A stretch of 34,290 bases of DNA from a virus, in the IMG/VR virus record IMGVR_UViG_3300033148_002372, positions 1 through 34,290 of that record. One strand, 5' to 3'. The position numbers and the translations under genes are program-made. Positions 6,205-27,642 of this stretch are shown in pieces; within the stretch, counting starts at the first letter, position 1; every line of letters starts with the position of its first letter. The notes below the pieces were generated by a model. It had not been told where the DNA came from, made no database searches, and saw only the letters and a program-made list of their open reading frames with translations.

Positions 6205-6309
6205 ATGAATAAGGCTTATGGAGTTTTTTTATTAGTCTTTACTGTTTGTCTTATTTGGTATGCCGGGATTTTGAACGTATTAGCTTTATTATTTATGGGA
6301 GATTTATGA
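6205..6309 (+). CDS. 34-aa single-pass membrane miniprotein
   Basis: A 34-codon ORF. After MNKAYG there is an almost unbroken hydrophobic stretch (VFLLVFTVCLIWYAGILNVL and on) long enough for one transmembrane helix, ending in GDL. It begins 7 bp after the -10, apparently leaderless, and is the first gene of the sugar operon. Its TGA overlaps the next ATG. A membrane anchor for the glycosylation enzymes or a small holin-like or superinfection protein are possibilities; nothing decides between them. Confidence 0.55.
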   Translation: MNKAYGVFLLVFTVCLIWYAGILNVLALLFMGDL

Positions 6310-6356
6310 GAATAAGTATTCGAAGAATAAGACTGGAAAGGATATTCGAAGAATGA
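6306..6356 (+). CDS. 16-aa Arg-rich linker ORF
   Basis: A 16-codon ORF (MRISIRRIRLERIFEE) joined by ATGA overlaps to the 34-aa gene before it and the 310-aa glycosyltransferase after it. It spans both copies of the 12-bp repeat TATTCGAAGAAT. Its first codons, ATGAGAATAAG, resemble the true start of the glycosyltransferase, ATGAGAATAGG, so it may be a duplicated start region serving as a coupling device rather than a functional peptide. Confidence 0.4.
   Translation: MRISIRRIRLERIFEE
6317..6354 (+). repeat. 12-bp direct repeat TATTCGAAGAAT at the operon start
   Basis: Identical copies lie at 6317-6328 and 6343-6354, 26 bp apart. The second copy ends on the first two bases of the ATG of the 310-aa glycosyltransferase. 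A purine-rich GGAAAGGA lies between them and may be the ribosome-binding site. Confidence 0.6.
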
Positions 6357-7285
6357 GAATAGGATTTATAGGTAACTTCATACCAGAATTTTCTACAGAG
6401 AATGACCGGAAATGGACTTTTCTTAGGTTAGGGCATAATGTAGTAACTTTTCAAGAGAACGAAACTTCAAAAGACACTCTTCTTAAATGGATGCCAGACT
6501 TAGACTTACTTCTTTATAGTCACACCCACGACCCGAATTACAATATTTTAGGCTTAAAAGAAGTTTTTGAGACTTATAAGAAAAACAAGGTTCCTACCGT
6601 ATCAGTTCATTTGGATAAGTGGGCTGGTTTAGAACGGGAAAAAGACGTGGGTAAAGAGGCTACTTGGTTTACAAAATATATCTTTATGGCGGATTGTTCT
6701 CCAGAAGCCGAAAAACTGTATAAAAAACATAATTTAAACTATTTTTACCTTCAACCAGGTGTCGTAGAACGGGATTGTTATATGTCTGCTCCTGATCCAG
6801 TTCGATTCCCACATGAGATTGTATTTACTGGTTCTAAGGGCTATCACCAGGAATATCCCTTCAGACCACAACTTATAGAGTTCCTTCAAGAGACTTACGA
6901 AGATCAATTCGGTCATTATGGAAATGATGGTATTGAGGTCGTTAGAGGACATGATTTAAACACTCTGTATGCCTCCAGTAAGATAGTAATTGGAGATTCG
7001 TGTTTTGGAACACAAGAAAACTATGTTTCTGATCGTTATTATGAGGTCCGTGGCAGGGGAGGTTTTCTTCTTAATCCGATTGTTGGAGGAGTAGATACTA
7101 TTGGTGTAGGGCATTACACCCATGATGATTTTGTCTCTTTAAAGAGCAGTATTGACTATTACCTGAAAAACAACAACCTTCGGGAGATTAAGAGAGTAAA
7201 CGGGTTTAACAAAGTTAGAGAAAGTGAAACTTATACCCACAGAGCAGTAGAGATGCTAGAAAGGATAAAAGCCTCAAAATCATGA
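6353..7285 (+). CDS. CgeB-like GT-B glycosyltransferase
   Basis: A 310-residue enzyme with the layout of CgeB-like/group 1 glycosyltransferases. The opening strand is MRIGFIGNFIPEF. YLQPGV (132-137) is the conserved 'interpret the position as names' block between domains, and SDRYYEVRGRGGFLLNP (226-242) is the typical C-terminal donor-binding loop. FVSLKSSIDYYLKNNNLREI with TYTHRAVEML closes the domain. It would transfer a nucleotide-activated sugar in the cytoplasm; donor and acceptor cannot be told. It is the first enzyme of the coupled operon, and the next gene starts within its stop (ATGA). Confidence 0.85.
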   Translation: MRIGFIGNFIPEFSTENDRKWTFLRLGHNVVTFQENETSKDTLLKWMPDLDLLLYSHTHDPNYNILGLKEVFETYKKNKVPTVSVHLDKWAGLEREKDVGKEATWFTKYIFMADCSPEAEKLYKKHNLNYFYLQPGVVERDCYMSAPDPVRFPHEIVFTGSKGYHQEYPFRPQLIEFLQETYEDQFGHYGNDGIEVVRGHDLNTLYASSKIVIGDSCFGTQENYVSDRYYEVRGRGGFLLNPIVGGVDTIGVGHYTHDDFVSLKSSIDYYLKNNNLREIKRVNGFNKVRESETYTHRAVEMLERIKASKS

Positions 7286-7950
7286 TTAGAGAAGGAGTTA
7301 AAAGGCAAACTTGTGAAGCTGGTCATAAAAGTCATGAACGATTAGAAGTTGAGACAGATTTGGGTTTAATGACTGTTTTTAATTGGAATAAGTATAGAAG
7401 TCAACCTGGATTCTATTGTACTGGTCAAGATGATGTTTCTCGTACTTTATTCAATGAAGGAACTTGGGAAAAAGAACAAACCAAGTTAATAGGAAAAATC
7501 CTCAAAGAAGGAAACAAAAAGAACTTAGTTATTGATGTTGGTTCTCATGTTGGTTGGTATTCAAGGATGGCGAGTCAGTTTGGTTATGAGGTTGAAGCGT
7601 TTGAGGGTGATATAGAAAATGTTGAGGTTTTTAAGTTAAATGCTCCAAAGGCAAATATACACACAATATGGTTTGATAAAGATTTAGAGGGTGTTTTTGA
7701 CTTAGACAAAGACGTTGAATTAATGAAAATTGATATTGAGGGTGCAGAGGAACACGTTATCAGGTATTTTGCATCTGGTCTTAATAGAGTTAAACACTTA
7801 ATAATGGAAATTAGCCCTGTGTTTAATGATTCTTACCCTGGATTGATACGAATTTTGCAAGATTTCGGATTTAAGGTTTTAGAGTTAGATGGTAAACCTT
7901 TTGACTTTAATTTTGATTTTAAACAGAGAGATTTGTATTTTAAAAGATGA
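7282..7950 (+). CDS. FkbM family SAM-dependent methyltransferase
   Basis: A 222-residue FkbM-type O-methyltransferase. SAM-binding motif I is VIDVGSHVGWYS (83-94), the acidic ribose contact is in AFEGD (106-110), and the family signature KIDIEGAEEHVI lies at 149-160. LIMEISP and the FGFKVLELDG near the C-terminus are also usual. FkbM enzymes methylate hydroxyls of sugars and polyketides, so methylation of the phage-made glycan is the likely role. It overlaps both neighbours by 4 nt, so production is tied to the glycosyltransferase before it and the nucleotidyltransferase after it. Confidence 0.9.
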   Translation: MIREGVKRQTCEAGHKSHERLEVETDLGLMTVFNWNKYRSQPGFYCTGQDDVSRTLFNEGTWEKEQTKLIGKILKEGNKKNLVIDVGSHVGWYSRMASQFGYEVEAFEGDIENVEVFKLNAPKANIHTIWFDKDLEGVFDLDKDVELMKIDIEGAEEHVIRYFASGLNRVKHLIMEISPVFNDSYPGLIRILQDFGFKVLELDGKPFDFNFDFKQRDLYFKR

Positions 7951-8915
7951 AAAACACAATAATTAAGAGAGGAAACCTTGAAATAGAGACTTTTAAAGAG
8001 AGTTCTGCTGTTCAAGTTATTTTAACTGTTAGTGGCAGTGTAATTATGCACGCCTTCTTGGAAGGTGATGCTTATGAGTTGTGGGGAGACAAAATGGTTT
8101 ATTATCCCTGGGGTATGCCTTATGAACAGAAGGTTGAACAAGTTTGTTTTAATATCCTTTTAAATCATCCTATCGCTTCTGGTTTATCCAAGGTTGAGGA
8201 AAGAATTAGTGCAGAAGATATCAGAGAAATGGTTACTGAGTTAAAAGATGACCTCTTAACTGTGCCTACTACTTATATTATTGTGGCTGGTGGGAAATCT
8301 ACTAGGTGGAAGAATTACAAGGGAATTGAAAAGCACATGATTGAGTTTGATGGTGAACCTATTATTGAAAGAACTATTCGATTATTAAGAACTCATGGAG
8401 TTGAGGATATTGTTGTTGCATCAGATAATAGTAAGTACAAATTTAAGGGAGCAGGGTTATATAAACCCAAGTATGACCCGAAGTATATTGATGCCAATAA
8501 ATACATGGATTCCAAACCTATTTGGAACAAAGAAGGTAGAACTGTGATTCTTTTTGGGGATGTTTACTTCACTGAAAGTGCTATTTACAAGATAGTCAAT
8601 GATTTTTCAAGAAGGTGGATGTTATATGGTCGTTCAGGACCAAGTAATATCGGAAAACCTTATTCTGAACCTTTTGGTATAGGTTTTTATCCCAACGAAC
8701 ATAAATTAATTGAGAGTGGTGCTAATAGGTCTGCCGATTTGTTTAGAAAAGAAATAGCTAATGGAACTTCACTTTGTCATTTGTATAGGTGTTTACTGGA
8801 CTTCCCAGACCATTTAATCAATTCAGAACTCTTTGGTGAAAGAATGGTAATTATTGATGACTTAACAGACGATTTTGATATTCCAGAAGATTATATTAGA
8901 TTTGTAAACAGATGA
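7947..8915 (+). CDS. Sugar nucleotidyltransferase-like protein with novel N-terminus
   Basis: A 322-residue protein in two parts. Residues 1-107 are not recognised and begin with a beta-rich stretch. From 109 on there is an NTP-transferase fold: VAGGKSTRW (113-121) is the nucleotide-binding G-G-x-x-T-R loop, EKHMIEFDGEPIIERTI follows with the usual Lys, and LFGDVYFTE (202-210) carries the metal-binding Asp. Such enzymes activate a sugar phosphate with CTP, GTP, UTP or dTTP, and would supply donor to the nearby transferases. It overlaps both neighbours by 4 nt. The N-terminal domain might be a cupin-like or binding domain, but I cannot confirm it. Confidence 0.8.
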   Translation: MKNTIIKRGNLEIETFKESSAVQVILTVSGSVIMHAFLEGDAYELWGDKMVYYPWGMPYEQKVEQVCFNILLNHPIASGLSKVEERISAEDIREMVTELKDDLLTVPTTYIIVAGGKSTRWKNYKGIEKHMIEFDGEPIIERTIRLLRTHGVEDIVVASDNSKYKFKGAGLYKPKYDPKYIDANKYMDSKPIWNKEGRTVILFGDVYFTESAIYKIVNDFSRRWMLYGRSGPSNIGKPYSEPFGIGFYPNEHKLIESGANRSADLFRKEIANGTSLCHLYRCLLDFPDHLINSELFGERMVIIDDLTDDFDIPEDYIRFVNR

Positions 8916-9598
8916 AAAACGTGAAAATTAATGGCAAGTGGGATATTTTGCTTCCTGAACACAGGGCAAACCGCAAAGAGTGGTTTTCCAAAAAGGGTTG
9001 GGAGAGAAAAAGACTGGATTCTATGTATGAAAAACTCACCAAAGATGATGTTTTGTATTATGTAGGAGTAGAGGAAGGGGAGATGCCAGCACTTTGTATG
9101 CTTTGGGGAGTTAAAAATGTGGTACTTTTTGAACCTAACAAACTCGTCTGGTCGAATGTAAGAGCCGTTTGGGAAGGAAATGACCTAGATGTACCTTTTT
9201 CCTTTGTTGGTTTTGCTAGTAACAAAGATACTAAGGGTGCAAGATTACTTGAGGGTTTTCCAGAATGTTCTAATAAGGAAATTATTACAAATCATGGTTT
9301 TAAGGAATTGAAAGATCCTGGTGATATACCTCAAATCAGAATTGACACTGTGCAATCATTACATATCCCCCCGACTGCTATTTCTTTGGATGTAGAAGGT
9401 TCTGAGTGGGAAGTATTAAAAGGTGCGGAACAGACTTTGAGAAAATATCATCCTAAGATTTGGCTTTCACTTCATCCAGAGTTTCTCTTTGATCAATATG
9501 GGAAGTATTCTTACGAGGTCAGAAGGTGGATTCAAAAGATTGGTTACAAGGAAACTCTTTTGGATTATCAACACGAAGCTCATTTTTTGTATGAATAG
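8912..9598 (+). CDS. Second FkbM family methyltransferase
   Basis: A 228-residue FkbM-type methyltransferase clearly different from the one at 7282. The SAM loop is an unusual YYVGVEEGEMPALC (49-62), followed by the acidic strand end LFEPNK (72-77), IRIDTV (142-147) and the strong family signature SLDVEGSEWEVLKGAEQTL (158-176), ending with LHPE. Methylation of a second glycan position is likely. Motif I lacks the usual D-x-G-x-x-x-G form (VGVEEGEMP), so activity should not be assumed. It is coupled to its neighbours by a 4-nt overlap upstream and an 8-nt overlap downstream. Confidence 0.85.
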   Translation: MKNVKINGKWDILLPEHRANRKEWFSKKGWERKRLDSMYEKLTKDDVLYYVGVEEGEMPALCMLWGVKNVVLFEPNKLVWSNVRAVWEGNDLDVPFSFVGFASNKDTKGARLLEGFPECSNKEIITNHGFKELKDPGDIPQIRIDTVQSLHIPPTAISLDVEGSEWEVLKGAEQTLRKYHPKIWLSLHPEFLFDQYGKYSYEVRRWIQKIGYKETLLDYQHEAHFLYE

Positions 9599-10133
9599 AC
9601 TAACAAAAGAAAAAAACTATTGGAACAAAGCCAGTAAAGATCCCAAAGTAGATATAAAGTATATTTCTGATATCGGCAAAGCACCCTTTTTAGACCTTCT
9701 TGGTAAGGAACTAAAAAAAGGCAAAACCCTTGAAATAGGTTGTGGAGTTGGTCGTTTAATGCAAGATGGTTATTGTGGGATAGATATTTCTGAAGGAATG
9801 TTGGAGATTGCTAAAAAGAGGAAGCCAAAGTGTCATTTTAAGTTGTCTGATGGTAGGAGTATCCCCTACAAAGACGAAACCTTTGACAGTGTTTATTGTG
9901 TATTAGTTTTTCAACACATTCCTTTTGATGCAGTACAATTCTATATTGACGAAGCAAGCAGGGTTCTTAAAAAGGATGGTGTGTTTATTTTCCAGATGAT
10001 ACATGGTGACGAAGATGAACCTTTTTCTAAACATCACAGAGTCGGTAAACTGAATATCGCTAAATTCAGCAAAGATCGTGCCTTACATGGACTTATTCAC
10101 CCACAATGGACTTGGATTAAACTAACTAAATGA
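9591..10133 (+). CDS. Class I SAM-dependent methyltransferase
   Basis: A 180-residue Methyltransf_11-type enzyme. The glycine loop LEIGCGVGRL (47-56), GIDIS (63-67), SDGRSIPYKDETFDSVYC (86-103, motif II with the hydrophobic strand) and LVFQHI (105-110), then RVLKKDGVFIFQM, are all in order. I choose ATG 9591 over an upstream in-frame ATG at 9489 because the extra 34 residues would lie inside the FkbM gene and belong to no domain. The shorter form overlaps that gene by 8 nt. The substrate is unknown; a sugar or sugar-nucleotide is likely from the context. Confidence 0.85.
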   Translation: MNRLTKEKNYWNKASKDPKVDIKYISDIGKAPFLDLLGKELKKGKTLEIGCGVGRLMQDGYCGIDISEGMLEIAKKRKPKCHFKLSDGRSIPYKDETFDSVYCVLVFQHIPFDAVQFYIDEASRVLKKDGVFIFQMIHGDEDEPFSKHHRVGKLNIAKFSKDRALHGLIHPQWTWIKLTK

Positions 10134-11659
10134 AAATAAACTATTTAACAGTAAAAGTAGGTGTTGCTCCAGATTCCTATTGGGACCAGACTTTTATTAA
10201 AGATTTGCTTGAGGACTTACCAGAAGGCGATAGGAAGGTCTTTCTAGTCCCTGGTGCTTATCAGGGTGATGTAATAGACAAAATTAACAAAGAACTTCAG
10301 AAACATGAAAAAGTAATGGTTTTCATAACCTCGGATGAGGAAGGTAAATTTGATTGCTCAAAACTAGAACATCCAGACATGATTCATTATTGTCAGTATG
10401 GGCATTGTGAGAACTTAATACCTCTTGGTTATACTCCACATACTAAAAAGGCTAAGTATGCTCCAAAAGTGTATGACTGGTTTTTTGCAGGTCAGATTAA
10501 TCATACCAGGCGTGAAAAGATGGGTAAGGTTTTAGAAAAACTATTGGCACGAAAAGCCACAGTTGGTTTATATGTTCCGACTGATGGATTTGCTAAGGGA
10601 CTTTCTCCAGAAAGATATATTGAGGCTATGGCTGGTTCTAAGGTTGTTCTTTGTCCGTCTGGTAATGTTTCTCATAGTAGTTTCCGTGTATATGAGGCTC
10701 TTGAGTGTGGAGCAGTACCTATTGTTGATGAGTTTAATGTTGCAGGTGAAACAGGATATTGGCAAAAGATGTTTTCTGATGCTCCATTTCCAATATTAAC
10801 CTCTTATGACGAACTTCCCTATTTAATTGAAAAATACAAAGACAAAGGTCCCGAAGTTTATGCTTGGTGGATTTCCAAAAAACAAGAGATTAAAGAGAAA
10901 CTTGCTATTCAATTAGGATGTCCGGTGGATGCTACAACTGCTGTAGTTGTTACTTCTCCAATTAAGTCTCACCCTGATACTGGAATGATGTGTGAGGCAC
11001 TCAATAGTGTTAAACATCACCTCGATTGTAAGATAGTGATAGGGTTTGATGGGGTTAGAGATGAACAGAAAGACTTTTCTGAAAGATATAGTGAGTATAT
11101 AAATCGGATGTTGTGGATGTGTAACTTCAAATACTCAAAAACAGTTCCAGTTTTGTTTAAAAAACACAAACATCAGTCAGGAATGATGAAAAAGATAATG
11201 CCAATGATTAAAACTCCTCTTTTGTTGTTTGTTGAGCATGACACTCCTTTGGTTGTGGATGAACCGATAGACTTTCCATATTTACAGAGAACTTTACTTA
11301 CAGGTCATTCCTTTCTTATAAGGTTTCATTTTGAGGCTAGTATTCCAAAAGAACATGAATATATGATAATAGGCAAGGTAGAAAACCGATTGTTAAAAAC
11401 CTACCAGTGGTCACAAAGACCGCACTTGGCTAGAACAGACTTTTACACAGAAGTAATCAAGTTCTTTTCAGAGGACAGTAATTGTTTCATAGAAGATTTG
11501 ATTCATGGTAAAGTTATTGATGCCTGGATGGCTGATGAAATGAAAGGTTGGGATAAGTGGCGTATGCACATTTATATCCCAGGAGAAAACATAAAGAGAT
11601 CCTTAAACTTAGATGGGAGAGGCTCTGATTACAAATATGAAAAAGAACAAAAGTGGTAA
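10130..11659 (+). CDS. Two-domain glycosyltransferase fusion
   Basis: A 509-residue protein with two transferase-like halves. Residues 1-260 resemble a GT-B/exostosin-type domain: FFAGQINHTRREK (118-130), LSPERYIEAMAGSKVVLCPS and FRVYEALECGAVPIV (185-199), the typical donor-binding loop. From about 270 a GT-A-like domain begins (AVVVTSPIKSHPDTGMMCEA), with LFVEHDTPL (366-374) in the place of a D-x-D metal motif. A fusion could add two sugars in sequence. The second domain has E-H-D rather than D-x-D, so metal use is uncertain. ATGA overlap with the upstream methyltransferase. Confidence 0.75.
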   Translation: MKINYLTVKVGVAPDSYWDQTFIKDLLEDLPEGDRKVFLVPGAYQGDVIDKINKELQKHEKVMVFITSDEEGKFDCSKLEHPDMIHYCQYGHCENLIPLGYTPHTKKAKYAPKVYDWFFAGQINHTRREKMGKVLEKLLARKATVGLYVPTDGFAKGLSPERYIEAMAGSKVVLCPSGNVSHSSFRVYEALECGAVPIVDEFNVAGETGYWQKMFSDAPFPILTSYDELPYLIEKYKDKGPEVYAWWISKKQEIKEKLAIQLGCPVDATTAVVVTSPIKSHPDTGMMCEALNSVKHHLDCKIVIGFDGVRDEQKDFSERYSEYINRMLWMCNFKYSKTVPVLFKKHKHQSGMMKKIMPMIKTPLLLFVEHDTPLVVDEPIDFPYLQRTLLTGHSFLIRFHFEASIPKEHEYMIIGKVENRLLKTYQWSQRPHLARTDFYTEVIKFFSEDSNCFIEDLIHGKVIDAWMADEMKGWDKWRMHIYIPGENIKRSLNLDGRGSDYKYEKEQKW

Positions 11660-12704
11660 AATAGGTTTAATAGCTTTTGCTAATTCTTCTGGTCTTGGCG
11701 CTCAAACTAGGAGGTTGGCACAACTGATACAACCAGATAGGATTTTGGTTGTTAATTCCTCTGGGTTTTCCCAAAACAAGAAACAGAACTTTGATTGGTA
11801 CAAGGATTTTGAGTTCTTTGTTTCTAACGGGTTTCCTTCAGATAAGGATGTTCTCGCTTTTATGCAGAACCTTACACACATCTTTACTTGCGAGAATCCT
11901 TATAACTTCAACATGATTCACTGGGCTAGGCAAAAGGGAATTAAGACTTATTGTCAGTCTAACTATGAATTTTGTGAAAACCTGGGTAAACATTACCTTC
12001 CTGCTCCAGATGTATTCTTAATGCCTTCTTATTGGAAAATTAAAGAGATGGAAGAAAAGTTCGGTAAGGATTCTGTTGCTTATCTTCCCCCTCCAATAAA
12101 CCCCGATGAGTTTGAGATTCCAAGGAAAATTAACATGAAAAGGAAAGGGAAGCCAAGATTCCTACATATTATTGGAACTTTGGTCACTGAGGACAGAAAT
12201 GGAACCCTGGATTTACTAGAAGCTGTTAAATTGTCTAAAGAAGATTTTGAGTTGGTTATCCACACCCAACATCCACTTCCGATGACTTACTTTTTAGATG
12301 ACAAGAGAGTGAAATACAGAATAGAGGATTTTGTAAACAACTATGAGCTGTATAAGAATTTTGATGCTCTTATTTTACCCAGGAGGTTTGGTGGATTGTC
12401 TTTGACCACAAATGAAGCCCTGATGAGTGGCTTGCCGGTTTTTATGACTGATATCTCACCTAATAATAAGTTGCTTCCCAAAGACTGGCTTATTAGGTCG
12501 GAGAAGAAAGGTTCTTTCATGGCTAGAAGTAAAATTGACTTGTATTCCATTGATGTTAAAAGATTGGCAGAGAAAATTGACTGGCTGGCTTCTATTGGAC
12601 CTTTAACTAAGTTGTTAAAAGAAAAGGCTTTCAAACTCGGCAAGAAGAACTTTAGTGGTGAGATATTAAGACCAAAATATGAAAAACTATTTAAACCTTT
12701 TTAA
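11637..12704 (+). CDS. GT-B glycosyltransferase (group 1 type)
   Basis: A 355-residue GT-B enzyme. The N-terminal strand and glycine loop IGLIAFANSSGLGAQTRRLA (9-28) is followed by the linker YLPPPINPDEF (149-159). The C-terminal donor-binding block is LPRRFGGLSLTTNEALMSGL (247-266) with PVFMTDI after it. I start at ATG 11637 (MKKNKSGKIG), which overlaps the upstream gene by 23 nt; a more upstream ATG at 11613 would only lengthen the overlap. It is the last gene of the uninterrupted sugar operon. Its 3' end overlaps the convergent minus-strand gene by 14 bp. Confidence 0.85.
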   Translation: MKKNKSGKIGLIAFANSSGLGAQTRRLAQLIQPDRILVVNSSGFSQNKKQNFDWYKDFEFFVSNGFPSDKDVLAFMQNLTHIFTCENPYNFNMIHWARQKGIKTYCQSNYEFCENLGKHYLPAPDVFLMPSYWKIKEMEEKFGKDSVAYLPPPINPDEFEIPRKINMKRKGKPRFLHIIGTLVTEDRNGTLDLLEAVKLSKEDFELVIHTQHPLPMTYFLDDKRVKYRIEDFVNNYELYKNFDALILPRRFGGLSLTTNEALMSGLPVFMTDISPNNKLLPKDWLIRSEKKGSFMARSKIDLYSIDVKRLAEKIDWLASIGPLTKLLKEKAFKLGKKNFSGEILRPKYEKLFKPF

Positions 12705-12885
12705 CCATAGGAAGCCCACTGTGGGTTTCAAAAACTTTGTATTTAAGAGGCAAATCGCCTTTGTAGTAGTCATCTTTAATTTCTTTGCTAAAGTAGTAAG
12801 AAATAGCCTCAATTTTGTTTCTAGGAAGAATTACTTTTCTGGTGTGAAGATACCACTTCGTTCCATTTTTAGAAGAAAAAACCAT
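12691..12885 (-). CDS. 64-aa moron-like protein, CPR-type small family
   Basis: A 64-residue protein on the strand opposite to all neighbours. It begins MVFSSKNGTKWYLHTRKVIL, has AISYYFSK in the middle, and ends ETHSGLPMVKK. From memory, a small family with the pattern W-x-L-H ... Y-F-S-K ... G-Y-x-V ... T-G-L-P-x-L-K-K is common in Patescibacteria/CPR genomes, so this could have come from such a host; I cannot check it here. It has its own extended -10 promoter whose -10 ends 6 bp before the ATG, with no Shine-Dalgarno. It overlaps the upstream glycosyltransferase convergently by 14 bp. Confidence 0.7.
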   Translation of the reverse strand: MVFSSKNGTKWYLHTRKVILPRNKIEAISYYFSKEIKDDYYKGDLPLKYKVFETHSGLPMVKKV

Positions 12886-12891
12886 ATTTAA

Positions 12892-12920
12892 AATATAGCA
12901 CGCAATTAGAAATTATGCAA
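12892..12920 (-). promoter_or_regulatory. Extended -10 promoter of the 64-aa moron
   Basis: Minus strand: TTGCAT (12920-12915), 17 bp, TGC-TATATT (12897-12892), six bases, ATG. Its -35 overlaps the terminase start codon. On the plus strand CATATTTAAAAT (12883-12894) resembles the late-type -10, so a bidirectional element is possible, but no matching -35 was found. Confidence 0.65.
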
Positions 12921-14468
12921 AACCTGTCTGAAGCAGAAGTCAAAAGGGTTCAAGCTACCCTGGAGGGAATGAAGGAAAAGGCTTCTGAAGATCCCATCTA
13001 TTTTATTGACACTTTTTGTTATACCTTTAATCCAAAACTTCCAAAAGGACAAAGTCCTCATTTAAGATTTAAACTATTCCCCTTTCAAAAAAGACTTGTA
13101 AGAGACATTTTAAAAAGTATCAGAGATGGTGAGGATTTGTTTATTGAAAAGTCTAGGGAGGTTGGAGCAACCTATACGATATTGGCTACCATTCTTTGGA
13201 TGTGGAGATACGAACCAGGTTCTAACGTCTTAGTTGGTTCTCGTAAAGAGGATTATGTTGACAACAGGCGTGGTGGAACAACTGGAAACAAAGAAGAATC
13301 TTTGTTTGGAAAACTTGACTATATGCTTTCCAGGCTTCCTGATTTTATGCTTCCTAAAGGTTTTGACAGAAATAGGCATTTTACTTATATGTCTTTAATC
13401 AATCCTGAAAATGGGAATGTTGTTTCCGGTGAATCTGCTAACCAAAACTTCTCAAGAGGTTCTAGGCATAGAATGATCTTTTTAGATGAGTTTGCCTTCT
13501 GGGACCATGGAATTGCAGTTTGGGGAGCAACTGCTGATACTACTAATTGTCGAATTATTGCCACAACTCCAGGGGACAGACCTTCTAAGGCTAAAAGACT
13601 CCGTTTTGGTAAAGATGGTGAGAAAATTAAAGTTGTAACTCTTACTTACAACCAAGACCCAAGAAAAACAAAAAAGTGGTTAGAAACTCAAAGAGACAGA
13701 CGTTCAAGTGAGGACTTCAATCGTGAGATCATGATTAATTGGGAAACCTCTATTACAGGTAGGGTTTATCCTGAAATGGAGAGTGCCGCTTTTGGTGAGT
13801 TCCCATTCCTTGTAAACAAACAGCTTTATTGTAGTTGGGATTTTGGTTTGGATGGTACAGCCTTGATTTTCTGGCAACAAAACCCTGCTAATGGTAAATG
13901 GCGAATTGTTGACTGTTTTGAGTCACAAGACAAGGTTATTCAGTGGTATTACCCTCTTTTTGGAAAACCGATGGATTCTAAGTTCCAATATACCGATGAT
14001 GACATAAAGGCAGTAACAGATATCGCACAATACCCTCCGGCTATTCACTTTGGAGATCCTGATGTAAACAAAAGAAGTTACTTAGTAAAAGATACAACTA
14101 CTAGACAGGAACTAGAAAAGGTTGGGGTTTTTGTCCAGTCAATTCCTAAAAATGACTTTACTACTCGCAGGGAGAAAACAAAGATTGCTTTGCAAAAAGG
14201 AATTGAGGTAGATATAAGTGCCAGAACAGAGTATTTAATGGAGTGTTTAAAGTCTGCTCGTTATCCTCAAAGAGAGGAAACCTCACAGTCTACTCAACCT
14301 GTTTCATTGCCAATTCATGATTGGACATCTCATTTTAGAACCTCTATGGAGTATTTTTTCACCAACATCGACATTTGGAGTACAAAACCCAAAGATGCTC
14401 CTAAATGGGCAGACCAAACAAAAAGTTGGCTTACTAATAGAATGAGGATGAAATCAAGAAGGGGGTGA
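12915..14468 (+). CDS. terL: Terminase large subunit
   Basis: A 517-residue packaging motor. The ATPase half has LFPFQKRLVRDIL as adenine-binding motif, EKSREVGATYT (78-88) in the Walker A position, MIFLDEFAF (187-195) as Walker B with the catalytic Glu, and IIATTPGD (214-221) as motif III. The nuclease half has SWDFGLDGTALIFW (307-320) with the first metal-binding Asp, and IHFGDPDVNKR (377-387) with later acidic residues. It cuts and pumps phage DNA into the procapsid through the portal. The start has no Shine-Dalgarno. The Walker A sequence is unusual (S-R-E-V-G-A-T rather than G-x-x-x-x-G-K), as in many terminases. Confidence 0.95.
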   Translation: MQNLSEAEVKRVQATLEGMKEKASEDPIYFIDTFCYTFNPKLPKGQSPHLRFKLFPFQKRLVRDILKSIRDGEDLFIEKSREVGATYTILATILWMWRYEPGSNVLVGSRKEDYVDNRRGGTTGNKEESLFGKLDYMLSRLPDFMLPKGFDRNRHFTYMSLINPENGNVVSGESANQNFSRGSRHRMIFLDEFAFWDHGIAVWGATADTTNCRIIATTPGDRPSKAKRLRFGKDGEKIKVVTLTYNQDPRKTKKWLETQRDRRSSEDFNREIMINWETSITGRVYPEMESAAFGEFPFLVNKQLYCSWDFGLDGTALIFWQQNPANGKWRIVDCFESQDKVIQWYYPLFGKPMDSKFQYTDDDIKAVTDIAQYPPAIHFGDPDVNKRSYLVKDTTTRQELEKVGVFVQSIPKNDFTTRREKTKIALQKGIEVDISARTEYLMECLKSARYPQREETSQSTQPVSLPIHDWTSHFRTSMEYFFTNIDIWSTKPKDAPKWADQTKSWLTNRMRMKSRRG

Positions 14469-14473: not shown

Positions 14474-14626
14474 ATGTTTAATGAAATGCTAATAAGAGAG
14501 CAATTTCGTGAGTTAGTAATAAACACGAAAAATATTTTAACCTATATGCAGGAGTCAAAAGAAGAAACACAAAAGTTGAAAAAGGAAATCAAGTTACTTA
14601 AAGAAATGGTTAAAAAGAAGAAATGA
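14474..14626 (+). CDS. 50-aa coiled-coil protein
   Basis: A 50-codon ORF rich in Lys, Glu and Gln with heptad leucines (YMQESKEETQKLKKEIKLLK, then EMVKKKK), likely a short coiled coil. It starts 5 nt after the terminase stop behind the purine-rich GAAGGGGGTGAT and its TGA overlaps the ATG of the GT2 gene. The position between terminase and portal suggests a head-assembly accessory, but its small size and coupling to the glycosyltransferase leave this open. Confidence 0.55.
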   Translation: MFNEMLIREQFRELVINTKNILTYMQESKEETQKLKKEIKLLKEMVKKKK

Positions 14627-15282
14627 AAGCACCTAAAATAGATTGTTCTGTAATAGTTACTTGTTATCAGAAAGAAGAATATCTCAATGAGTGTCTTGAG
14701 TCTGTTAAAAGACAAACTAGACAACCAAAAGAGACTATTCTGGTTCATGATGCTTGTGATAATCCAATGGCTCATGCCATAGCAACAACCATTATTCTTC
14801 CTGAGAATGTTGGTGTTTGTAAGGCGAGGGATATTGGGTTTAATTACTCTACTGGAAGTTTGATTCTCTTTTTAGATGCAGATGACGTTCTATCTCCTGA
14901 TTACCTGGAGAAAATGGCTCTGGTGATTGCTAAAGGAGCAGATGTCGCTTATCCAGACTTGTTTGTGTGGCAAGAGGGTAATTCCTACTTATCAGTTCCT
15001 CCTAACACTATGACTAAAAAATACATTACTAGAAAATCTAAAATGCCTATACCAGTGACTTCCATGATGAAAAGAGAAGTTTATGAAAAACTTGGTGGGT
15101 TTAGGGAAATGCCTGTTTTGGAAGATTTAGACTTCTTCATAAGAGCCATGTGTAAGAATTACACAATCAAAAAGGCTCAAACCCTTTTGTGGTACAGGAG
15201 ATATCCAGGAACTAGAAATTCATTAAGCATTGAAGAAAGAAAGGGGGTGTTGGCTAAGATACTTGCCCAGATAAATGCCTAG
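14623..15282 (+). CDS. GT2-family glycosyltransferase
   Basis: A 219-residue GT-A enzyme of family 2. It has CSVIVTCYQKEEYLNECLES (8-27), the nucleotide-sugar-binding strand ENVGVCKARDIGF (61-73), the metal-binding FLDADD (83-88) and the catalytic-base region PVLEDLDFFIRA (164-175). It would add a sugar to an acceptor; there is no membrane segment. It lies between terminase and portal, away from the main sugar operon, coupled to the small coiled-coil gene and overlapping the next gene by 8 nt. Placement inside the head-gene block suggests a virion acceptor. Confidence 0.9.
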   Translation: MKAPKIDCSVIVTCYQKEEYLNECLESVKRQTRQPKETILVHDACDNPMAHAIATTIILPENVGVCKARDIGFNYSTGSLILFLDADDVLSPDYLEKMALVIAKGADVAYPDLFVWQEGNSYLSVPPNTMTKKYITRKSKMPIPVTSMMKREVYEKLGGFREMPVLEDLDFFIRAMCKNYTIKKAQTLLWYRRYPGTRNSLSIEERKGVLAKILAQINA

Positions 15283-15617: not shown

Positions 15618-17591
15618 ATGTCGATGCCAACTAGCAAGAAAGAAAAATATGCGGAGATTGTATATAATCGTTATACAAAAGCCAAAGAGTTGTGCGAAAA
15701 TGTATTCTCCAGGGTAGAAGTCAATCGCAACTTGTATAAGGGTGTCCTCAACTTAGATGACACTTATGAATGGGACTATTCGTTAGTTGACCAACAAGTC
15801 TTTCCTCTTATCAGAAACTACATAGCCAGGTCCAATCCTTCAATGACCAAAGTTAGGCTTGAGGCAAGAAAAGAGGAAGATTTTGAAAGAAGGCAAGTAA
15901 ATCAGGATTTTGTTAATTGGGAAATCAATGAATTACCTCTGACTTCACTTCTTACAAGAGGTTTTTTCTCCAACTATATTGCTGGTAAGGCTTACTACAA
16001 AACTGGCTGGAAGTATGATCCCAGAGTTGTGGTTGAAAATGATGAGTATTCCTATCAGATGCGACCTCTTATCAATCGTGGGGATTTAGAATTTATTAGG
16101 TTTAATAATCTTTTGATTCCTAATAGAAACATCCAAGATTTACAAGAACAGCCTTACATTATCGAACTCATGCAACTTCGTATTGGAGACATGATTAAAG
16201 ACAATGAAACTTTCGGTTATGAGTATTGGGATAAGAAATTTATAGCAAAACTTAAAAAGGGTGGAGTTAGTAGTAAAGAGTTGGATTATGAAGCAGATTT
16301 CGTAAAAGACACTGACACCAAGGATAGAATGGCTTTTATGGCGGCAACTTTTCCTGCGGCACGGATGCAAACACTTGAGGGAGATGTAATCTATATTCCC
16401 TTAATTAAACACGACAGGCAGGTTTTAAATCTAAACATGGAGAATGAATACTGGCATGGTCATTATCCTTATATAGACATGACTGCCTTTCCTGAAGATG
16501 ATGAGTTTTTCTCAATGAGTGTTGTTGATGCTGTAGGAGATACTCAAATCGCCTCTACTGAAGTTTTAAACCAGACACTAACAAACATCCGTCAGGTAAA
16601 CAACAATATGTGGATAGCCGGTACTTCGGCAGCTTCTACCCCTGATTATATGTTCCAGCAAAGACCTTCAGGGATTATTAGAGTTCCAGGTGATCCAAAC
16701 CAAATTCAACCAATAAGACCGATTGACTCTACAAGGTCAATGTTGGCGGTTGGACAGGAACTAAATACTAAGTTTGAAAGAACTGGTGGAATCTCATCAC
16801 TTTATTCATCTGGTTCTGCTTCTACTAAGGCAATCAATCAAACTGCTAGAGGAGCGCAAATAATTGATGAGAACATAGAAACTAATGTGAAAATGATTCT
16901 CGACCTCTTTGGTGAGCAAGTGTTGAAGAAACTTGGGAATCACTTTATTGAACTTAATGCTCAATATGTATCAGAAGAACAAACTTTCGCTGTTACTGGT
17001 AAAAAGGGTGTAAGAGAACTTGTTACAATTTCTCCAGATGAAATAAGTGCAAACTTTGATGTTTACACAATGTCTGAGGAAATGATTAAACAGACTCCTG
17101 CTTCGAGGCAAGCCTCTTTACAAAATCTTATTACCCTTATAAATACGGAGGCTAGTCGGGCAGGAGTACAAGCTGATATAACACCACTAATGGAAGCCTT
17201 AATTGATTCCTACCCAGATATGGAAAATATAGACGATATTATTGTGTCACTTGATGAAAAATCTCAAAGAGATATTGCTATGATGGAAAGAGGGCAAGAA
17301 CCAGAGATACTACTTCGTGACCCACATCTTGAACTTGTAATGGCGGCTTCAATCAGATTTGAAGATTTCCAGACCTTATATCCTCCAGAGATAATTCAGT
17401 TGTTTGAGAAATACACAGAAAAACACTTAAGGTATATTCAAGCTGAACAGGAAGCTAAGATGATGGCACAACCTCAAATGCCACAAGCCATGTCTCCAGA
17501 AGCTATGGCACAATCGGCAGGTGCAGGAACTATTCCAGAAGCTACAGGAACCGGACAGCGAAGTGGTTATAATTTAAGCCAGATCAAGTAA
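15618..17591 (+). CDS. Portal protein
   Basis: A 657-residue protein of portal type, the dodecameric ring through which DNA enters and leaves. DDTYEWDYSLVDQQVFPLIR (about 47-66) near the N-terminus, the FFSNYIAGKAYYKTGWKYDP strand, the PGDPNQIQPIRPIDSTRSML region and GISSLYSSGSASTKAINQTA are typical of large podovirus portals. The C-terminus is Met/Gln/Ala-rich (AKMMAQPQMPQAMSPEAMAQ), as in many portals. Length fits the family. The gene starts 8 bp after the -10 of its promoter without Shine-Dalgarno, while a second in-frame ATG at 15624 could also be used. Confidence 0.85.
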   Translation: MSMPTSKKEKYAEIVYNRYTKAKELCENVFSRVEVNRNLYKGVLNLDDTYEWDYSLVDQQVFPLIRNYIARSNPSMTKVRLEARKEEDFERRQVNQDFVNWEINELPLTSLLTRGFFSNYIAGKAYYKTGWKYDPRVVVENDEYSYQMRPLINRGDLEFIRFNNLLIPNRNIQDLQEQPYIIELMQLRIGDMIKDNETFGYEYWDKKFIAKLKKGGVSSKELDYEADFVKDTDTKDRMAFMAATFPAARMQTLEGDVIYIPLIKHDRQVLNLNMENEYWHGHYPYIDMTAFPEDDEFFSMSVVDAVGDTQIASTEVLNQTLTNIRQVNNNMWIAGTSAASTPDYMFQQRPSGIIRVPGDPNQIQPIRPIDSTRSMLAVGQELNTKFERTGGISSLYSSGSASTKAINQTARGAQIIDENIETNVKMILDLFGEQVLKKLGNHFIELNAQYVSEEQTFAVTGKKGVRELVTISPDEISANFDVYTMSEEMIKQTPASRQASLQNLITLINTEASRAGVQADITPLMEALIDSYPDMENIDDIIVSLDEKSQRDIAMMERGQEPEILLRDPHLELVMAASIRFEDFQTLYPPEIIQLFEKYTEKHLRYIQAEQEAKMMAQPQMPQAMSPEAMAQSAGAGTIPEATGTGQRSGYNLSQIK

Positions 17592-18557: not shown

Positions 18558-18558
18558 A

Positions 18559-22710
<4,152 letters not shown>

Positions 22711-22711
22711 T

Positions 22712-23032
22712 ATGCCAGCACCAATAGCATTACAAAAAGTAAGCGTAGCACCTGATAAGTATTATTCCATTAAGGGTGGTATTAAAACCGAGATAACTGA
22801 AAAAGAATACAACTCTCCAATAGTAGGAAGCGAGATACGATCTAAAGGTATAGCTTTCGACACTCCAACGGGGAAACTTTCTGATGGTCAACACGCTACT
22901 CAAGAAAATGGTTTCCACTGGGTGAAAATAGCAGGTTATGAAGTTATAAAAATAGACCCAAGCATGGTGGCGAAAAGTAAAACAACACCAGCAGGTTTAA
23001 ATAAAATATTATTAGATTCGGAGGTTAAATAA
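22712..23032 (+). CDS. 106-aa hypothetical structural protein
   Basis: A 106-residue protein with a mixed, mostly beta appearance (SVAPDKYYSIKGGIKTEITE, VKIAGYEVIKIDPSMV), no membrane segment and no recognised family. It follows the fibre gene by one base and its TAA shares the A of the next ATG (TAATG). Its place between the fibre and adhesin-type genes suggests a fibre chaperone, baseplate or small tail component. Confidence 0.6.
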   Translation: MPAPIALQKVSVAPDKYYSIKGGIKTEITEKEYNSPIVGSEIRSKGIAFDTPTGKLSDGQHATQENGFHWVKIAGYEVIKIDPSMVAKSKTTPAGLNKILLDSEVK

Positions 23033-24639: not shown

Positions 24640-24641
24640 TT

Positions 24642-25397
24642 ATGGCAAACTTTAGTATAGAAGATTTTGAAGATAATGGTTACAACGATTTAACCAATTC
24701 TGGGGTAAATGCTGTAACAGATACTCCCTTTGCTGGTAGTGATTATGCAGCAGATTTTGATGGTAGTAGTTATTTAAAAATAGATGATGGTGACCAGACA
24801 GGATTAGATTTAGGAGCGACATTTACCTTAGAAGCTTGGGTAAGTCCTGCAACATTACCTGTAGATACTACTTACTTTACAATTATTGCTAAAGAGAATC
24901 CGAATGTTACAGCCCAAAGGGGTTTGCATTGGACAATATTTAATCGTGGTGCTGGAGTGATAGTAGAAGCCTTGATATCAGATGGTGACAATCATTATGA
25001 TTATTACCAATGGGATGTAGATGCAATTCTATCTGAAGATACCTGGACACATCTAGCTCTTACTTGTGAAACTTCTCAGCCATCTGCTACTACATTTGAG
25101 TTGTTTTCAGATGGTTCAAGTTTAGGAAATGGGTCAGCACTTATTTCTAATAATGTTTCATTAAACAATAACACTGAGGCATTTATAATTGGTGCTAGGA
25201 ATAGTAACTCTGGGATTACAGATTTTTATGATGGGATTATGGATGGAGTTAGGGTTTGGAATGACATTAGAACAGAATCAGAAATAGACGACAACAAAGG
25301 AATCAAACTTACAGGCAGTGAAGATGGTTTGGTTGCGTATTATCCATTTGAATCAGAAACTTATACTTCAATTCTTCCTGCATTTAAAAGATCATAA
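24642..25397 (+). CDS. LamG/concanavalin-like lectin protein
   Basis: A 251-residue protein of the LamG/Laminin_G_3 (concanavalin-like jelly roll) type. GSSYLKIDDGDQTGLDLGAT, FTLEAWVSPATLP, the central ALTCETSQPSATTFELFSDG and IMDGVRVWNDIRTESEI all follow the family order, as does the C-terminal GLVAYYPFE. Such domains bind glycans, so this is a probable receptor-binding or fibre-linked protein. It starts 3 bp after the adhesin gene stop. It is the last of the four fibre/adhesin-type genes, and the promoter of the next cassette begins one base after its stop. Confidence 0.85.
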   Translation: MANFSIEDFEDNGYNDLTNSGVNAVTDTPFAGSDYAADFDGSSYLKIDDGDQTGLDLGATFTLEAWVSPATLPVDTTYFTIIAKENPNVTAQRGLHWTIFNRGAGVIVEALISDGDNHYDYYQWDVDAILSEDTWTHLALTCETSQPSATTFELFSDGSSLGNGSALISNNVSLNNNTEAFIIGARNSNSGITDFYDGIMDGVRVWNDIRTESEIDDNKGIKLTGSEDGLVAYYPFESETYTSILPAFKRS

Positions 25398-25426
25398 TTG
25401 ACACATATCTAACGATTTGCTATATT
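25398..25426 (+). promoter_or_regulatory. Consensus sigma70 promoter of the sulfotransferase cassette
   Basis: TTGACA (25398-25403), exactly 17 bp, TATATT (25421-25426) with extended -10 TGC. It starts directly after the TAA of the lectin gene. The -10 ends 5 bp before the methyltransferase ATG at 25432, so transcription would start at or beside the A of ATG and the message would be leaderless. Confidence 0.85.
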
Positions 25427-25431
25427 GATAT

Positions 25432-26013
25432 ATGACCTGGAAAAAGGCTCAGGCTTGGGAAGAAAATTGGTGGGGAAATTGTGTAAATACCTTCAACGAA
25501 GAAAAGAAACAACTGATATATGCTCAAAGGATGGGATTGAAAACCTCACCCAATCCTAAAACTCCATACAGATTTGATTTAAAAGGTAAGTCTATTTTAG
25601 ATATTGGTTCGGGACCATGTTCTCTTTTGCTTAAGTGTGAGAATTTCAAACAAAGTTATGCTATTGATCCTTTAATGAATAAATATCCTGAATGGGTTAG
25701 AGAAAGATATAATAGTATTGGGCTTGTTTGTAATGATGAGAAAGGTGAGGATGTGGATGATTACCCTAAAGTTGATGAAGTTTGGATTTATAATGTTTTA
25801 GAACACGTTGATAGTCCTAAAAAGGTTATTGAAAATGCCAAAAAGGTTGGAAAGATAATTCGTCTTTTTGAGTGGATAAATACCAAAAAGAACCCAGGAC
25901 ACCCCCATTCTTTAAAAGAAAAGAAGTTAGACAAGTGGTTGGGTGGAACAGGTAAGACAGAAGATATGAGTTCAAATGGTTTGTTTGGAACTGCCTACTA
26001 TGGAATTTTCTAA
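25432..26013 (+). CDS. SAM-dependent methyltransferase, probably leaderless
   Basis: A 193-residue class I methyltransferase: ILDIGSGPCSLLL (55-67) is the SAM glycine loop, YAIDP (76-80) carries the acidic ribose contact, and VWIYNVLEHVDSPKKVI (117-133) is the usual motif after the substrate strand. The protein ends in GGTGKTEDMSSNGLFGTAY, less typical. The gene starts 5 bp after a consensus promoter and has no Shine-Dalgarno. It opens a three-gene cassette with a sulfotransferase and a GT4 enzyme, so the substrate is probably a sugar. Confidence 0.8.
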   Translation: MTWKKAQAWEENWWGNCVNTFNEEKKQLIYAQRMGLKTSPNPKTPYRFDLKGKSILDIGSGPCSLLLKCENFKQSYAIDPLMNKYPEWVRERYNSIGLVCNDEKGEDVDDYPKVDEVWIYNVLEHVDSPKKVIENAKKVGKIIRLFEWINTKKNPGHPHSLKEKKLDKWLGGTGKTEDMSSNGLFGTAYYGIF

Positions 26014-26014
26014 A

Positions 26015-26503
26015 ATGACAAACACAAGTCCAAAGACTTTTGTCGTATTAGGTTCTAAACGTGGTGGAACTTCTTTTGTGGCTCAAGCATTAGGAAGTGC
26101 AGGAGTAAAGTTTGACGTTTGTGGTAATGGACACAATGAAGATTTAGACTTTGTTCAGTTAAATGACAAGATTTTAAAGTTTGCTGGTGGGGATTGGAAC
26201 AATATCCCAAGTGATGAAAAAATAGCCCATGCAGTTGATCATTATAAACACCAAGTAAAGACCTTGTTGAAACGAAAGAAAATCCAAATGTGGGGTTGGA
26301 AAGACCCACGACAGTCTGCAACCATTAAACACTTTTTACCTTACTTGGAAGATGATGTTTACTTGGTTTGTGTATTCAGGAAAAAGGAACTTGTTGCTCA
26401 AAGTATCAAAACAATATGGGGAAAACCTTTAGCGAAAGGTCGAAAGATTGTAGACAGTTACTATGAGAGGCTAATTGATGCCATAAAGGAGTTTACAAAA
26501 TGA
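26015..26503 (+). CDS. Sulfotransferase-like protein
   Basis: A 162-residue protein with PAPS-binding features. The 5' phosphate-binding loop is VVLGSKRGGTSFVAQAL (10-26), GWKDPRQS (94-101) is the family-typical W-K-D-P-R, and LVCVFRKKELVAQSI (117-131) matches the 3' phosphate-binding segment (R-x-P/K-x-x-x-x-S). I start at ATG 26015, one base after the upstream stop, rather than the upstream in-frame ATG at 25976, which is inside the methyltransferase gene. Sulfotransferases are rare in phages. It would transfer sulfate from PAPS, supplied by the host, to a glycan hydroxyl. Confidence 0.8.
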   Translation: MTNTSPKTFVVLGSKRGGTSFVAQALGSAGVKFDVCGNGHNEDLDFVQLNDKILKFAGGDWNNIPSDEKIAHAVDHYKHQVKTLLKRKKIQMWGWKDPRQSATIKHFLPYLEDDVYLVCVFRKKELVAQSIKTIWGKPLAKGRKIVDSYYERLIDAIKEFTK

Positions 26504-27642
26504 GATTTCACTATATTGCCATGCCTCACCTTCCGGTAACTAAGGAATATATTTCTTGTGCTTTTACACAAAAGATTCACAAGCTAACACGAATGTTGCT
26601 GGATAAAGGTCACAAGGTCTTTTTGTATGGGGTTGACCATACAGACATTAAACACAAGAACCTGGAATTTATACCTACAGTAAATTTGGAGGACATAAGA
26701 AAAGAGTGGGGGGATGGTGATAACAGGTTTGAATTAGGATATGACTGGAAGAATGGAGATTTTAGACACGATTTGAATAAAAAGAAAACCGAGTGTCATT
26801 TTAAATTCAGACAACGGGCAGTTAAGGAAATCAGGAAACGAAAGAAAGATGATGATTTCCTTCTTTTAAGTCAGGGATATTACCATAAAAATATAGCTGA
26901 TGATGTTAAGTTGTTTTTGACTTGTGAACCTGGTATTGGATATCGTGGAAGTTATGCAAAATTTAGAGCCTTTGAGAGTGCCTATATTCAAAACTTCACT
27001 TATGGCTCAGAACACCCAAGACAGTCAATCAACGGCAACTATTACGATAGGGTGATTCCAAACTACTTTGACTTAGATGATTTCAAGTTTAGCAACAAGC
27101 CCGACAATTACCTCTTTTATATAGGAAGAATGATTAAAAGGAAGGGTTTAGCGACAGCCTTAATGGTTGCTCAACATCTTGATAAGAAACTCATATTAGC
27201 TGGTCAAGATTCTGGTGATTGGAGAAAAATTGGAGTTGAATACAAGAAAGCTGAATTTATCGGAACTGTGGGAGTTGATGAGCGGAAGAAACTCTTGTCT
27301 AAAGCCATGGTTACGTTTCTACCGACACTTTACCTTGAACCCTTTGGTGGGACATCAGTTGAGTCCATGCTAAGCGGTACTCCTGCTATAACAACAAACT
27401 TTGGTGTATTTCCTGAAACTATTAGAAATGGAGTTGGTGGATATAGGTGTGATACTTTAAACGACTTTGTTGTGAATACCAGGAAAGCCTTTCAACTAGA
27501 CAGAAAGAAAGTGAGAAGATATGCTGTTAGTAGATACTCAATGGAAGCGGTGAATGAGTTGTACGAAAAGTGGTGGAAGGACTTATACCAAGTATATTTA
27601 AGTACAAAAAGTGATGTTAAAGGTTGGCATTTGATAAAATGA
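26500..27642 (+). CDS. GT4-type glycosyltransferase
   Basis: A 380-residue GT-B enzyme of family 4 type. YLFYIGRMIKRKGLATAL (204-221) is the conserved start of the C-terminal domain, KLILAGQDSGDW (230-241) the nucleotide-binding strand, and LEPFGGTSVESMLSGTPAIT (279-298) the donor-binding E-x(7)-E loop with E280 and E288 acting on the sugar and phosphate. It overlaps the sulfotransferase by 4 nt and the next gene by 4 nt, so the three enzymes are made together. Substrate unknown. Confidence 0.9.
   Translation: MRFHYIAMPHLPVTKEYISCAFTQKIHKLTRMLLDKGHKVFLYGVDHTDIKHKNLEFIPTVNLEDIRKEWGDGDNRFELGYDWKNGDFRHDLNKKKTECHFKFRQRAVKEIRKRKKDDDFLLLSQGYYHKNIADDVKLFLTCEPGIGYRGSYAKFRAFESAYIQNFTYGSEHPRQSINGNYYDRVIPNYFDLDDFKFSNKPDNYLFYIGRMIKRKGLATALMVAQHLDKKLILAGQDSGDWRKIGVEYKKAEFIGTVGVDERKKLLSKAMVTFLPTLYLEPFGGTSVESMLSGTPAITTNFGVFPETIRNGVGGYRCDTLNDFVVNTRKAFQLDRKKVRRYAVSRYSMEAVNELYEKWWKDLYQVYLSTKSDVKGWHLIK

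Follow-up and report, generated by a model that had tools for sequence, protein, structure and literature searches.

The viral contig analysed here (the window; IMG/VR record IMGVR_UViG_3300033148_002372, 34,290 bases) comes from an uncultured virus of microbes and carries eleven enzyme genes, labelled A to K, that are predicted to build and modify glycans. They lie in three groups, all on the plus strand, and together span 9,223 bases, or 18.5% of a genome of ~50 kb. A contig of 50,101 bases from the same collection represents the genome more fully; it is near-identical to the window from position 375 on and differs from it at 43 positions, 8 at ~3.5-3.7 kb and 35 within the final 52 bases. 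An exact terminal repeat of 114 bases in this contig makes it probable that the genome, at ~50 kb, is complete. The divergent final 52 bases of the window (34239-34290) are probably an assembly end. All eleven open reading frames (ORFs) were found where the first-pass annotation had placed them, and ten of them pass curated Pfam cut-offs, J being the exception. Neighbouring genes overlap by 4 to 47 bases at seven of the eight junctions within the two enzyme-gene runs. On the evidence of gene order, the genes form two modules: A-G with H around the terminase gene (module 1) and I-J-K after a collagen-like fibre gene (module 2).

Module 1 opens with A (6353-7285), a GT-B-type glycosyltransferase of 310 amino acids (PF13524, Glyco_trans_1_2, 2.2e-9; phrog_28745, 1.4e-28), followed by the FkbM methyltransferase B (7282-7950; PF05050, 7.1e-6; TIGR01444, 1.1e-10), C (7947-8915), a protein with a nucleoside triphosphate (NTP)-transferase fold (PF12804, NTP_transf_3, 3.3e-9; phrog_33187, 2.1e-24), a second FkbM methyltransferase, D (8912-9598; PF05050, 7.9e-9; TIGR01444, 3.9e-10), the class I methyltransferase E (9591-10133; PF08241, Methyltransf_11, 9.5e-19), the dual glycosyltransferase F (10130-11659; RXYLT1_C, 1.7e-10) and the GT4-type glycosyltransferase G (11613-12704; PF13692, Glyco_trans_1_4, 4.1e-8; phrog_2170, 1.3e-12). 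For E, an ATG start at 9591 is preferable to a TTG at 9489; the exact start of G is uncertain. Next come the terminase large subunit (12915-14468, plus strand; PF03237, 4.5e-9; phrog_5989, 4e-20) and an SU10-type portal protein (15618-17591, plus strand; PF23899, 4.5e-30), and the gap between them is occupied by the GT2 glycosyltransferase H (14623-15282; PF00535, Glycos_transf_2, 3.5e-25).

The collagen-like fibre (18559-22710, plus strand; PF01391, 2.6e-78) is 1383 residues long, contains CBM_5_12 domains (PF02839, 1.3e-8) and is the likely acceptor for module 2. The first-pass annotation had described it as rich in Thr and Lys; Thr indeed occupies 146 of the Y positions in its 278 G-X-Y triplets, but Lys occupies only 12, and the protein is also rich in Asp and Glu. 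Downstream lie the class I methyltransferase I (25432-26013; PF08241, Methyltransf_11, 8.6e-5; phrog_3603, 1.7e-48), the sulfotransferase-like protein J (25976-26503), recognized by shared motifs and neighbours, and the GT4 glycosyltransferase K (26500-27642; PF00534, Glycos_transf_1, 1.3e-16). A LamG/concanavalin-type protein (24642-25397, plus strand; PF13385, 1.7e-19) separates the fibre from I.

Module 1 and the packaging genes

Searches for the gene set of the window elsewhere, suggested in the first-pass annotation, found relatives of its own lineage, F loci in other lineages and I-K pairs. Loci of the lineage were fetched through the portal protein, 15 by single sequence and 39 by alignment (the 15 included), and one genome contig brought the total to 40; the pairs L012/L013, L015/L016 and L051/L052 are near-duplicates. 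H lies between terminase and portal in all 35 of these loci that contain both genes, one of which is the window's own contig and some of which are near-duplicates. So strict a placement in the packaging block speaks against H being a mere stray accessory gene. Many relatives also retain G, and often F, A, D and E, upstream of the terminase, as judged by profiles that, like those of the J scan described below, were built partly from the sequences then searched. No match to A-G was found in the contig stretches examined of L012, L051, L052 and L054. Another member of the set, L065 (1-20350), is binned with a Heimdallarchaeota genome and contains A, D, F, G, terminase, H, portal and fibre; its ORFs from ~13.5 kb look cellular, so that it may be a chimera, contamination or a provirus, and its title gives a coverage of 0.92.

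The core of the cassette recurs well beyond this lineage. A scan with an F alignment returned 79 loci, of which 75 were analysed after L039, L055, L059 and L060, known from the portal scan, had been left out. Here and below, the scans for I, K and F gave the best 80 of 142, the best 80 of at least 575 and the best 80 of at least 562 relatives, respectively, and flanking sequence ends at contig ends. Sixty-two of the 75 F loci are counted as lying outside the lineage, since none of its terminase, portal or H was seen in them; 52 of these have A, 49 have D, 59 have G, 14 have E and 9 have B, and the order A..F..G is found in 50. The core A-FkbM-F-G is therefore found again in phages of other lineages, mostly in that order. 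Two Pfam models were used to look for terminases in 49 of these 62 records, and their cut-offs were passed in 11 records for Terminase_6N and in 3 for Terminase_3 (L253 and L254 resemble duplicates). In the 15 records in which a terminase was found, F is always on the terminase strand, and in six the terminase lies within 3.1 kb downstream of F. By PHROG matches, the cassette is closely followed by terminase and portal in L249 and in L289, a contig for which a search for DNA relatives among phages gave no match, and by a portal in L242.

The rarer genes B and C were considered as unique to the window genome, an idea rejected on finding both, again adjacent, in contig locus L230. A tblastn search of 50,697 phage records revealed homologues of A and C side by side in nine Streptomyces phages and no match to F or D. 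About 105 N-terminal residues of C (window 7947-8260) precede the NTP-transferase match and are absent from gp32 (217 amino acids) of a Streptomyces phage.

The structural model of F (pLDDT, the predicted local distance difference test score, 84; predicted TM-score 0.87; 11 aligned sequences) describes it as a two-domain enzyme, with a GT-B domain (~1-262) followed by a GT-A domain (~266-495). RXYLT1_C scores 41.1 bits (cut-off 27) and Exostosin_GT47 22.2 bits, below its cut-off of 33.4; PDB sequence searches gave no match. The top Foldseek matches are the human exostosins EXT1 and EXT2, which span both domains with TM-scores of ~0.3. Taken separately, residues 21-262 resemble chlorovirus AO75L (Z 13.8, root-mean-square deviation (rmsd) 3.9, 220 aligned residues, 14-15% identity), and residues 266-495 resemble B4GALNT1 (Z 16.1, rmsd 3.0, 182 aligned) and polypeptide GalNAc-transferases (Z ~14). 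Several records have the two halves in separate frames, consistent with two transfer steps. The first-pass annotation had named missing catalytic residues as evidence that would speak against it; no such loss was seen, and wherever relatives allowed the check the expected residues are conserved: D85, D87, D88, E167 and D168 of H in at least 95% of 29 aligned rows, catalytic-type residues common to 11 full-length or near full-length relatives of F, and E280 and E288 of K.

These patterns bear on the possibility that the enzymes are loose, host-derived accessory genes that have no common product and have merely gathered in regions tolerant of insertion. Variation in gene content among relatives favours this explanation: L009 has an epimerase beside its glycan genes (3422-4363) and a further GT2-like gene, L010, L017 and L037 have other ORFs weakly similar to H upstream of the terminase, and few members of the lineage have B, C or J. 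Against it stand the placement of H in 35 of 35 loci, the order kept across lineages, the repetition of the order I-J-K in the unrelated locus L160 and the catalytic-type residues common to the 11 F relatives. We consider this explanation quite improbable.

Module 2 and collagen-like fibres

In the lineage, I and K occur together in the window, L009 and L048, and a large collagen-like ORF (here and below, an ORF with a run of at least eight G-X-Y triplets) lies upstream in all three. More widely, we collected 62 distinct adjacent I-K pairs, 43 with I before K, 17 with K before I and 2 on opposite strands. Of the 42 pairs with enough sequence, 23 have a collagen-like ORF within 5 kb upstream (25 ORFs in total, every one on the same strand), and 2 of 17 have one 5-10 kb upstream. 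Downstream, the corresponding counts are 3 of 39 within 5 kb and 1 of 22 at 5-10 kb (upstream versus downstream, Fisher p = 4e-6). The asymmetry persists when I is clustered at identities of 90% (22/39 upstream versus 4/38 downstream), 70% (22/28 versus 3/27) or 60% (16/21 versus 2/20). Furthermore, a collagen-like ORF lies within 5 kb of I in 25 of 47 cases with an adjacent K and in 4 of 33 without.

No such association is seen for module 1. Of the F loci with enough sequence, none of 51 has a collagen-like ORF in the 5 kb upstream, and 1 of 59 has one in the 5 kb downstream. The first-pass annotation had proposed the fibre as the best acceptor for the whole enzyme set and had named relatives that keep the enzymes and lack the fibre as evidence against this. 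Such relatives exist for the first two groups of enzyme genes: L005 (F, G, H), L047 and L015 (G, H) and L065 (A, D, F, G, H) have no collagen-like ORF in the stretch examined. Conversely, L054, L010/G008 and L051/L052 have collagen-like ORFs and lack A-G upstream of the terminase. L005 had also been considered to keep E, which was rejected because the E-like match sits in the fibre region. As enzymes and fibre occur apart, the collagen-like fibre fails as the acceptor for A-H, for which a conserved head or tail protein is therefore more likely; the major capsid protein (29483-30634, plus strand; phrog_1328, 2e-15) is one possible acceptor. For I-J-K the proposal is supported by the position-specific co-occurrence with collagen-like ORFs in other phages.

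J and a possible sulfation step

J returned zero family matches at E values up to 10, with nothing in Pfam, PHROGs or NCBIfam and nothing meaningful in the PDB, and we do not class it as a member of a sulfotransferase family because no family model matches it. Nothing usable came from PDB sequence searches with J, a three-row J profile and J relatives; with the L160 relative, a Stf0 sulfotransferase appeared at E 0.7, ranked behind unrelated PDB rows. The structural model of J, built from two sequences, has a pLDDT of 45. However, alignments reveal that J and its closer relatives have in common a GTS loop, a KDPR motif and an R-x7-S motif, which we take to be marks of sulfotransferases that bind 3'-phosphoadenosine 5'-phosphosulfate (PAPS).

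Among 301 loci, the J profile matched the window contig, L300, L003, L064, L159/L160 and, weakly, L150. The clearest parallel is L160, an unrelated 90-kb phage in which a collagen-like gene (1,498 amino acids) is followed by a 173-residue ORF and then by I, J and K, repeating the order of the window; L159 carries the same J. The order in L150 is collagen, adenosine 5'-phosphosulfate (APS) kinase, a weak J relative (26.9 bits, without KDPR), another ORF and I-K, and its APS kinase matches adenylyl-sulfate kinases of the PDB at 1.5e-9. In phage L003, an APS kinase (5.8e-25) lies immediately upstream of the J relative. The relative in OQ572406 matches Sulfotransfer_3 at 6.9e-4, below the cut-off, and also adjoins an APS kinase (6e-64). 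PAPS is made by APS kinase, and its position beside J relatives in L003, L150 and OQ572406 therefore favours sulfation. In L300, J overlaps a GT4 gene a few genes past an SU10-type capsid gene.

Several of these loci have further features. Immediately after the capsid region of L300, an SU10/P22-type phage, positions 4195-7634 encode LicD-like, cytidylyltransferase-like and short-chain dehydrogenase proteins, the J relative and the GT4 enzyme. L003 has a DegT-type aminotransferase and an epimerase (4005-4820 and 8910-9800) near its glycan genes. Weaker matches to the APS kinase profile, at 37-59 bits, lie in K and F loci (L192 ~1683, L208 ~5399, L223 ~5927 and L294 ~2619, minus strand) and may be other small kinases. 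OQ572406.1 (L064, 1-29732), entitled 'Pseudomonas phage Y4', was considered as a phage source of a J relative and set aside: the record is labelled UNVERIFIED, is unannotated, has 62% GC and looks like a bacterial polysaccharide cluster, with glycosyltransferases, the sulfotransferase-like gene and the APS kinase.

The twin contig of the window, L003, L150, L159 and L160 carry metagenome ids from 3300033141 to 3300033153, probably from one study; since the ids form one series, these contigs do not represent independent habitats. We accordingly lowered our estimate that J is a working sulfotransferase from slightly better than even to an even chance. Sulfation of the glycan, which the first-pass annotation had proposed, is plausible: the neighbouring APS kinases and the motifs support it, whereas the missing family match and usable fold do not. 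Sulfated phage virions were not reported in the literature searched, which lacked most subscription papers.

Probable virion glycosylation and its relation to known systems

Since other viruses keep such gene sets beside genes for head or collagen-like fibre proteins, coating of the phage's own particle is the most likely explanation of the enzyme genes. The proposal that the phage glycosylates its own virion thus survives as the best reading of the gene neighbourhoods, without the fibre as acceptor of all enzymes, and we regard it as moderately probable. For the parts, action of module 1 on the virion appears probable, and action of module 2 on the collagen-like fibre reasonably likely. The glycan would most likely be methylated and perhaps sulfated. 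What the sequences show are the identities of ten of the eleven genes, conserved catalytic-type residues and a conserved order and set of neighbours; acceptors, residues, sugars, order of steps and sulfation are those that we infer. Soluble enzymes would act on virion proteins in the cytoplasm. Module 1 would make a short methylated glycan: H would most likely place the initial or core sugar on a conserved head or tail protein, A, F (with two transfer steps) and G would lengthen the chain, the FkbM and class I methyltransferases would add methyls, and C may provide an activated sugar. In module 2, K would transfer a sugar to the Thr-rich fibre, I would methylate and J would sulfate, using PAPS of the host. 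A more specific version, in which a dedicated phage collagen-fibre module (fibre, methyltransferase, sulfotransferase, GT4 and, in some phages, APS kinase) puts sulfated, methylated O-glycans on Thr-rich fibres and a second, shared cassette (glycosyltransferase, FkbM, exostosin-like dual glycosyltransferase and GT4) glycosylates the head, is tentative and, taken as a whole, rather doubtful.

Several observations weigh against virion glycosylation as set out here. In 9 of the 15 records in which a terminase was found, more than 8 kb separate it from F. A DNA methyltransferase, not packaging genes, follows the cassette in L251 and L252, and the ORF downstream of it in L272 and L299 has no PHROG match; outside the lineage, the cassette is thus often, though not generally, linked to packaging genes. 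Nor is the link of I-K to collagen strict, as G008 has a collagen-like ORF and no I-K, and I and K are in reversed order in 17 of the 62 pairs. K is near collagen about as often without an adjacent I (24/51) as with one (17/29), so that collagen is tied to K itself no less than to the I-K pair. The GT-A half of F also matches cellulose synthase and sugar nucleotidyltransferases, a general fold, and so tells the fold, not the reaction. J is without a family match or usable structural model, and C has a borderline hydrophobic stretch.

The DNA methyltransferase in L251 and L252 could instead point to hypermodification of phage DNA or nucleotides. Phage glycosyltransferases are widely explained as DNA modifiers (PMC10202952, PMC12619734), and phage nucleotide modification based on sulfotransferases and glycosyltransferases is mentioned, citing other work, in PMC10829341, which also speaks of viral sulfotransferases. 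However, no base-hydroxylating or thymidylate-synthase-like enzyme was found with Pfam among 20 further proteins of the ~50-kb genome, many of which have no family (small ORFs were not scanned), and module 2 follows collagen-like fibres. We consider hypermodification very unlikely.

Another explanation is that the enzymes remodel a surface glycan of the host (O-antigen, capsule or teichoic acid), thereby blocking superinfection or changing the receptor. Glycosyltransferase-rich fibre regions of pelagimyophages have been so interpreted by their authors (PMC7029224), and this is one of two roles proposed for freshwater actinophages (PMC10202952). In addition, one J relative is located in the bacterial polysaccharide-type cluster described above, and H matches bacterial polysaccharide glycosyltransferases. 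However, the eleven enzymes include no lipid-carrier enzyme, flippase or membrane-bound transferase, and no integrase was found among the 20 further proteins scanned. No clear membrane segment is present in A, B or D-K, and C has its borderline stretch, which argues against synthesis of a surface polymer. The same holds for serotype conversion of the GtrABC type: no membrane-bound transferase or flippase family was found, and no hydrophobic stretch bar that of C. The late-gene position and strand, and the tie of I-K to collagen-like fibres, also speak against a role at the host surface, which we judge to be unlikely.

Virion glycosylation by phages is already known. As far as our searches extend, what is new is a GT2 gene fixed in the packaging block, a cassette common to unrelated phages, collagen-linked K or I-K genes and a plausible sulfation step; sulfated virion glycans, if true, would be new for phages. 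Environmental phages have both collagen-like fibres and glycosyltransferases, the latter usually explained as modifiers of host surfaces or DNA. In the present data, one enzyme pair is linked to collagen-like fibres, and one cassette often to packaging genes, by the gene neighbourhoods of unrelated phages. The question of the acceptor can thereby be put to the test in cyanophages and Streptomyces phages grown in the laboratory. If phage particles are sulfated, ideas about their surface charge, adsorption and protection would have to change.

Among known systems, mycobacteriophages are a close parallel in having their own glycosyltransferases and a methyltransferase amid structural genes. Corndog encodes an O-methyltransferase and glycosyltransferases in the interval from portal to protease; these were detected in infected cells, and modification of the capsid was suggested by the authors (PMC4351075). 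Che8, Corndog and Myrna are reported to bear glycans on capsid or tail proteins in PMC12363180, PMC11256854 and PMC12619734, which cite Freeman et al. 2023, and this work is also cited in PMC13313380. The window likewise has phage-encoded glycosyltransferases within structural genes. It differs in having far more genes, a collagen-linked module and the sulfotransferase-like J, and no Mycobacterium phage is among the tblastn matches of A, C, D, F, H, I and K at the limits applied (B, E and G were not searched). In the Streptomyces phage Rooney, homologues of A and C are adjacent and followed by an annotated methyltransferase (genes 31-33), after a large repetitive gene; unlike the fibre of the window, gp30 is not collagen-like. 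Across the nine Streptomyces phages, identity is ~26% for A and 26-33% for C, and F was not found.

Eukaryotic viruses offer analogues for both modules. The algal virus PBCV-1 encodes mostly soluble, multi-domain glycosyltransferases (A064R, A061L, A075L) and methyl capping, as here, and its exostosin-like A075L is believed to attach xylose to the glycan of the capsid (PMC9614988). PBCV-1 differs in having N-glycans on its capsid protein, and F is only 14-15% identical to AO75L. For module 2, Mimivirus L230, which hydroxylates and glucosylates viral collagen-like proteins (PMC9614988), is a proven analogue of a viral enzyme that glycosylates viral collagen; it is a hydroxylase-glucosyltransferase acting on Lys, whereas K is a GT4 enzyme and the fibre is Thr-rich. 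Just downstream of the collagen and K genes of cyanophages, 2-oxoglutarate (2OG)-Fe(II) oxygenases (L066 12402-12995 in ACG-2014f; L301 9733-10329 in S-CAM7) might hydroxylate the collagen-like protein. Cyanophage ACG-2014f has the order collagen triple helix protein, hypothetical protein, I (41.6% identical to that of the window), K, 2OG-Fe(II) oxygenase and short tail fibre. In the cyanophage isolate S-CAM7, two genes for collagen-like proteins (AOV62204 and AOV62205) precede K, which is followed by a hypothetical protein not homologous to I, a 2OG-Fe(II) oxygenase and a tail protein. In the stretches read, both cyanophages differ from the window in lacking J and match it in placing K after collagen-like genes.

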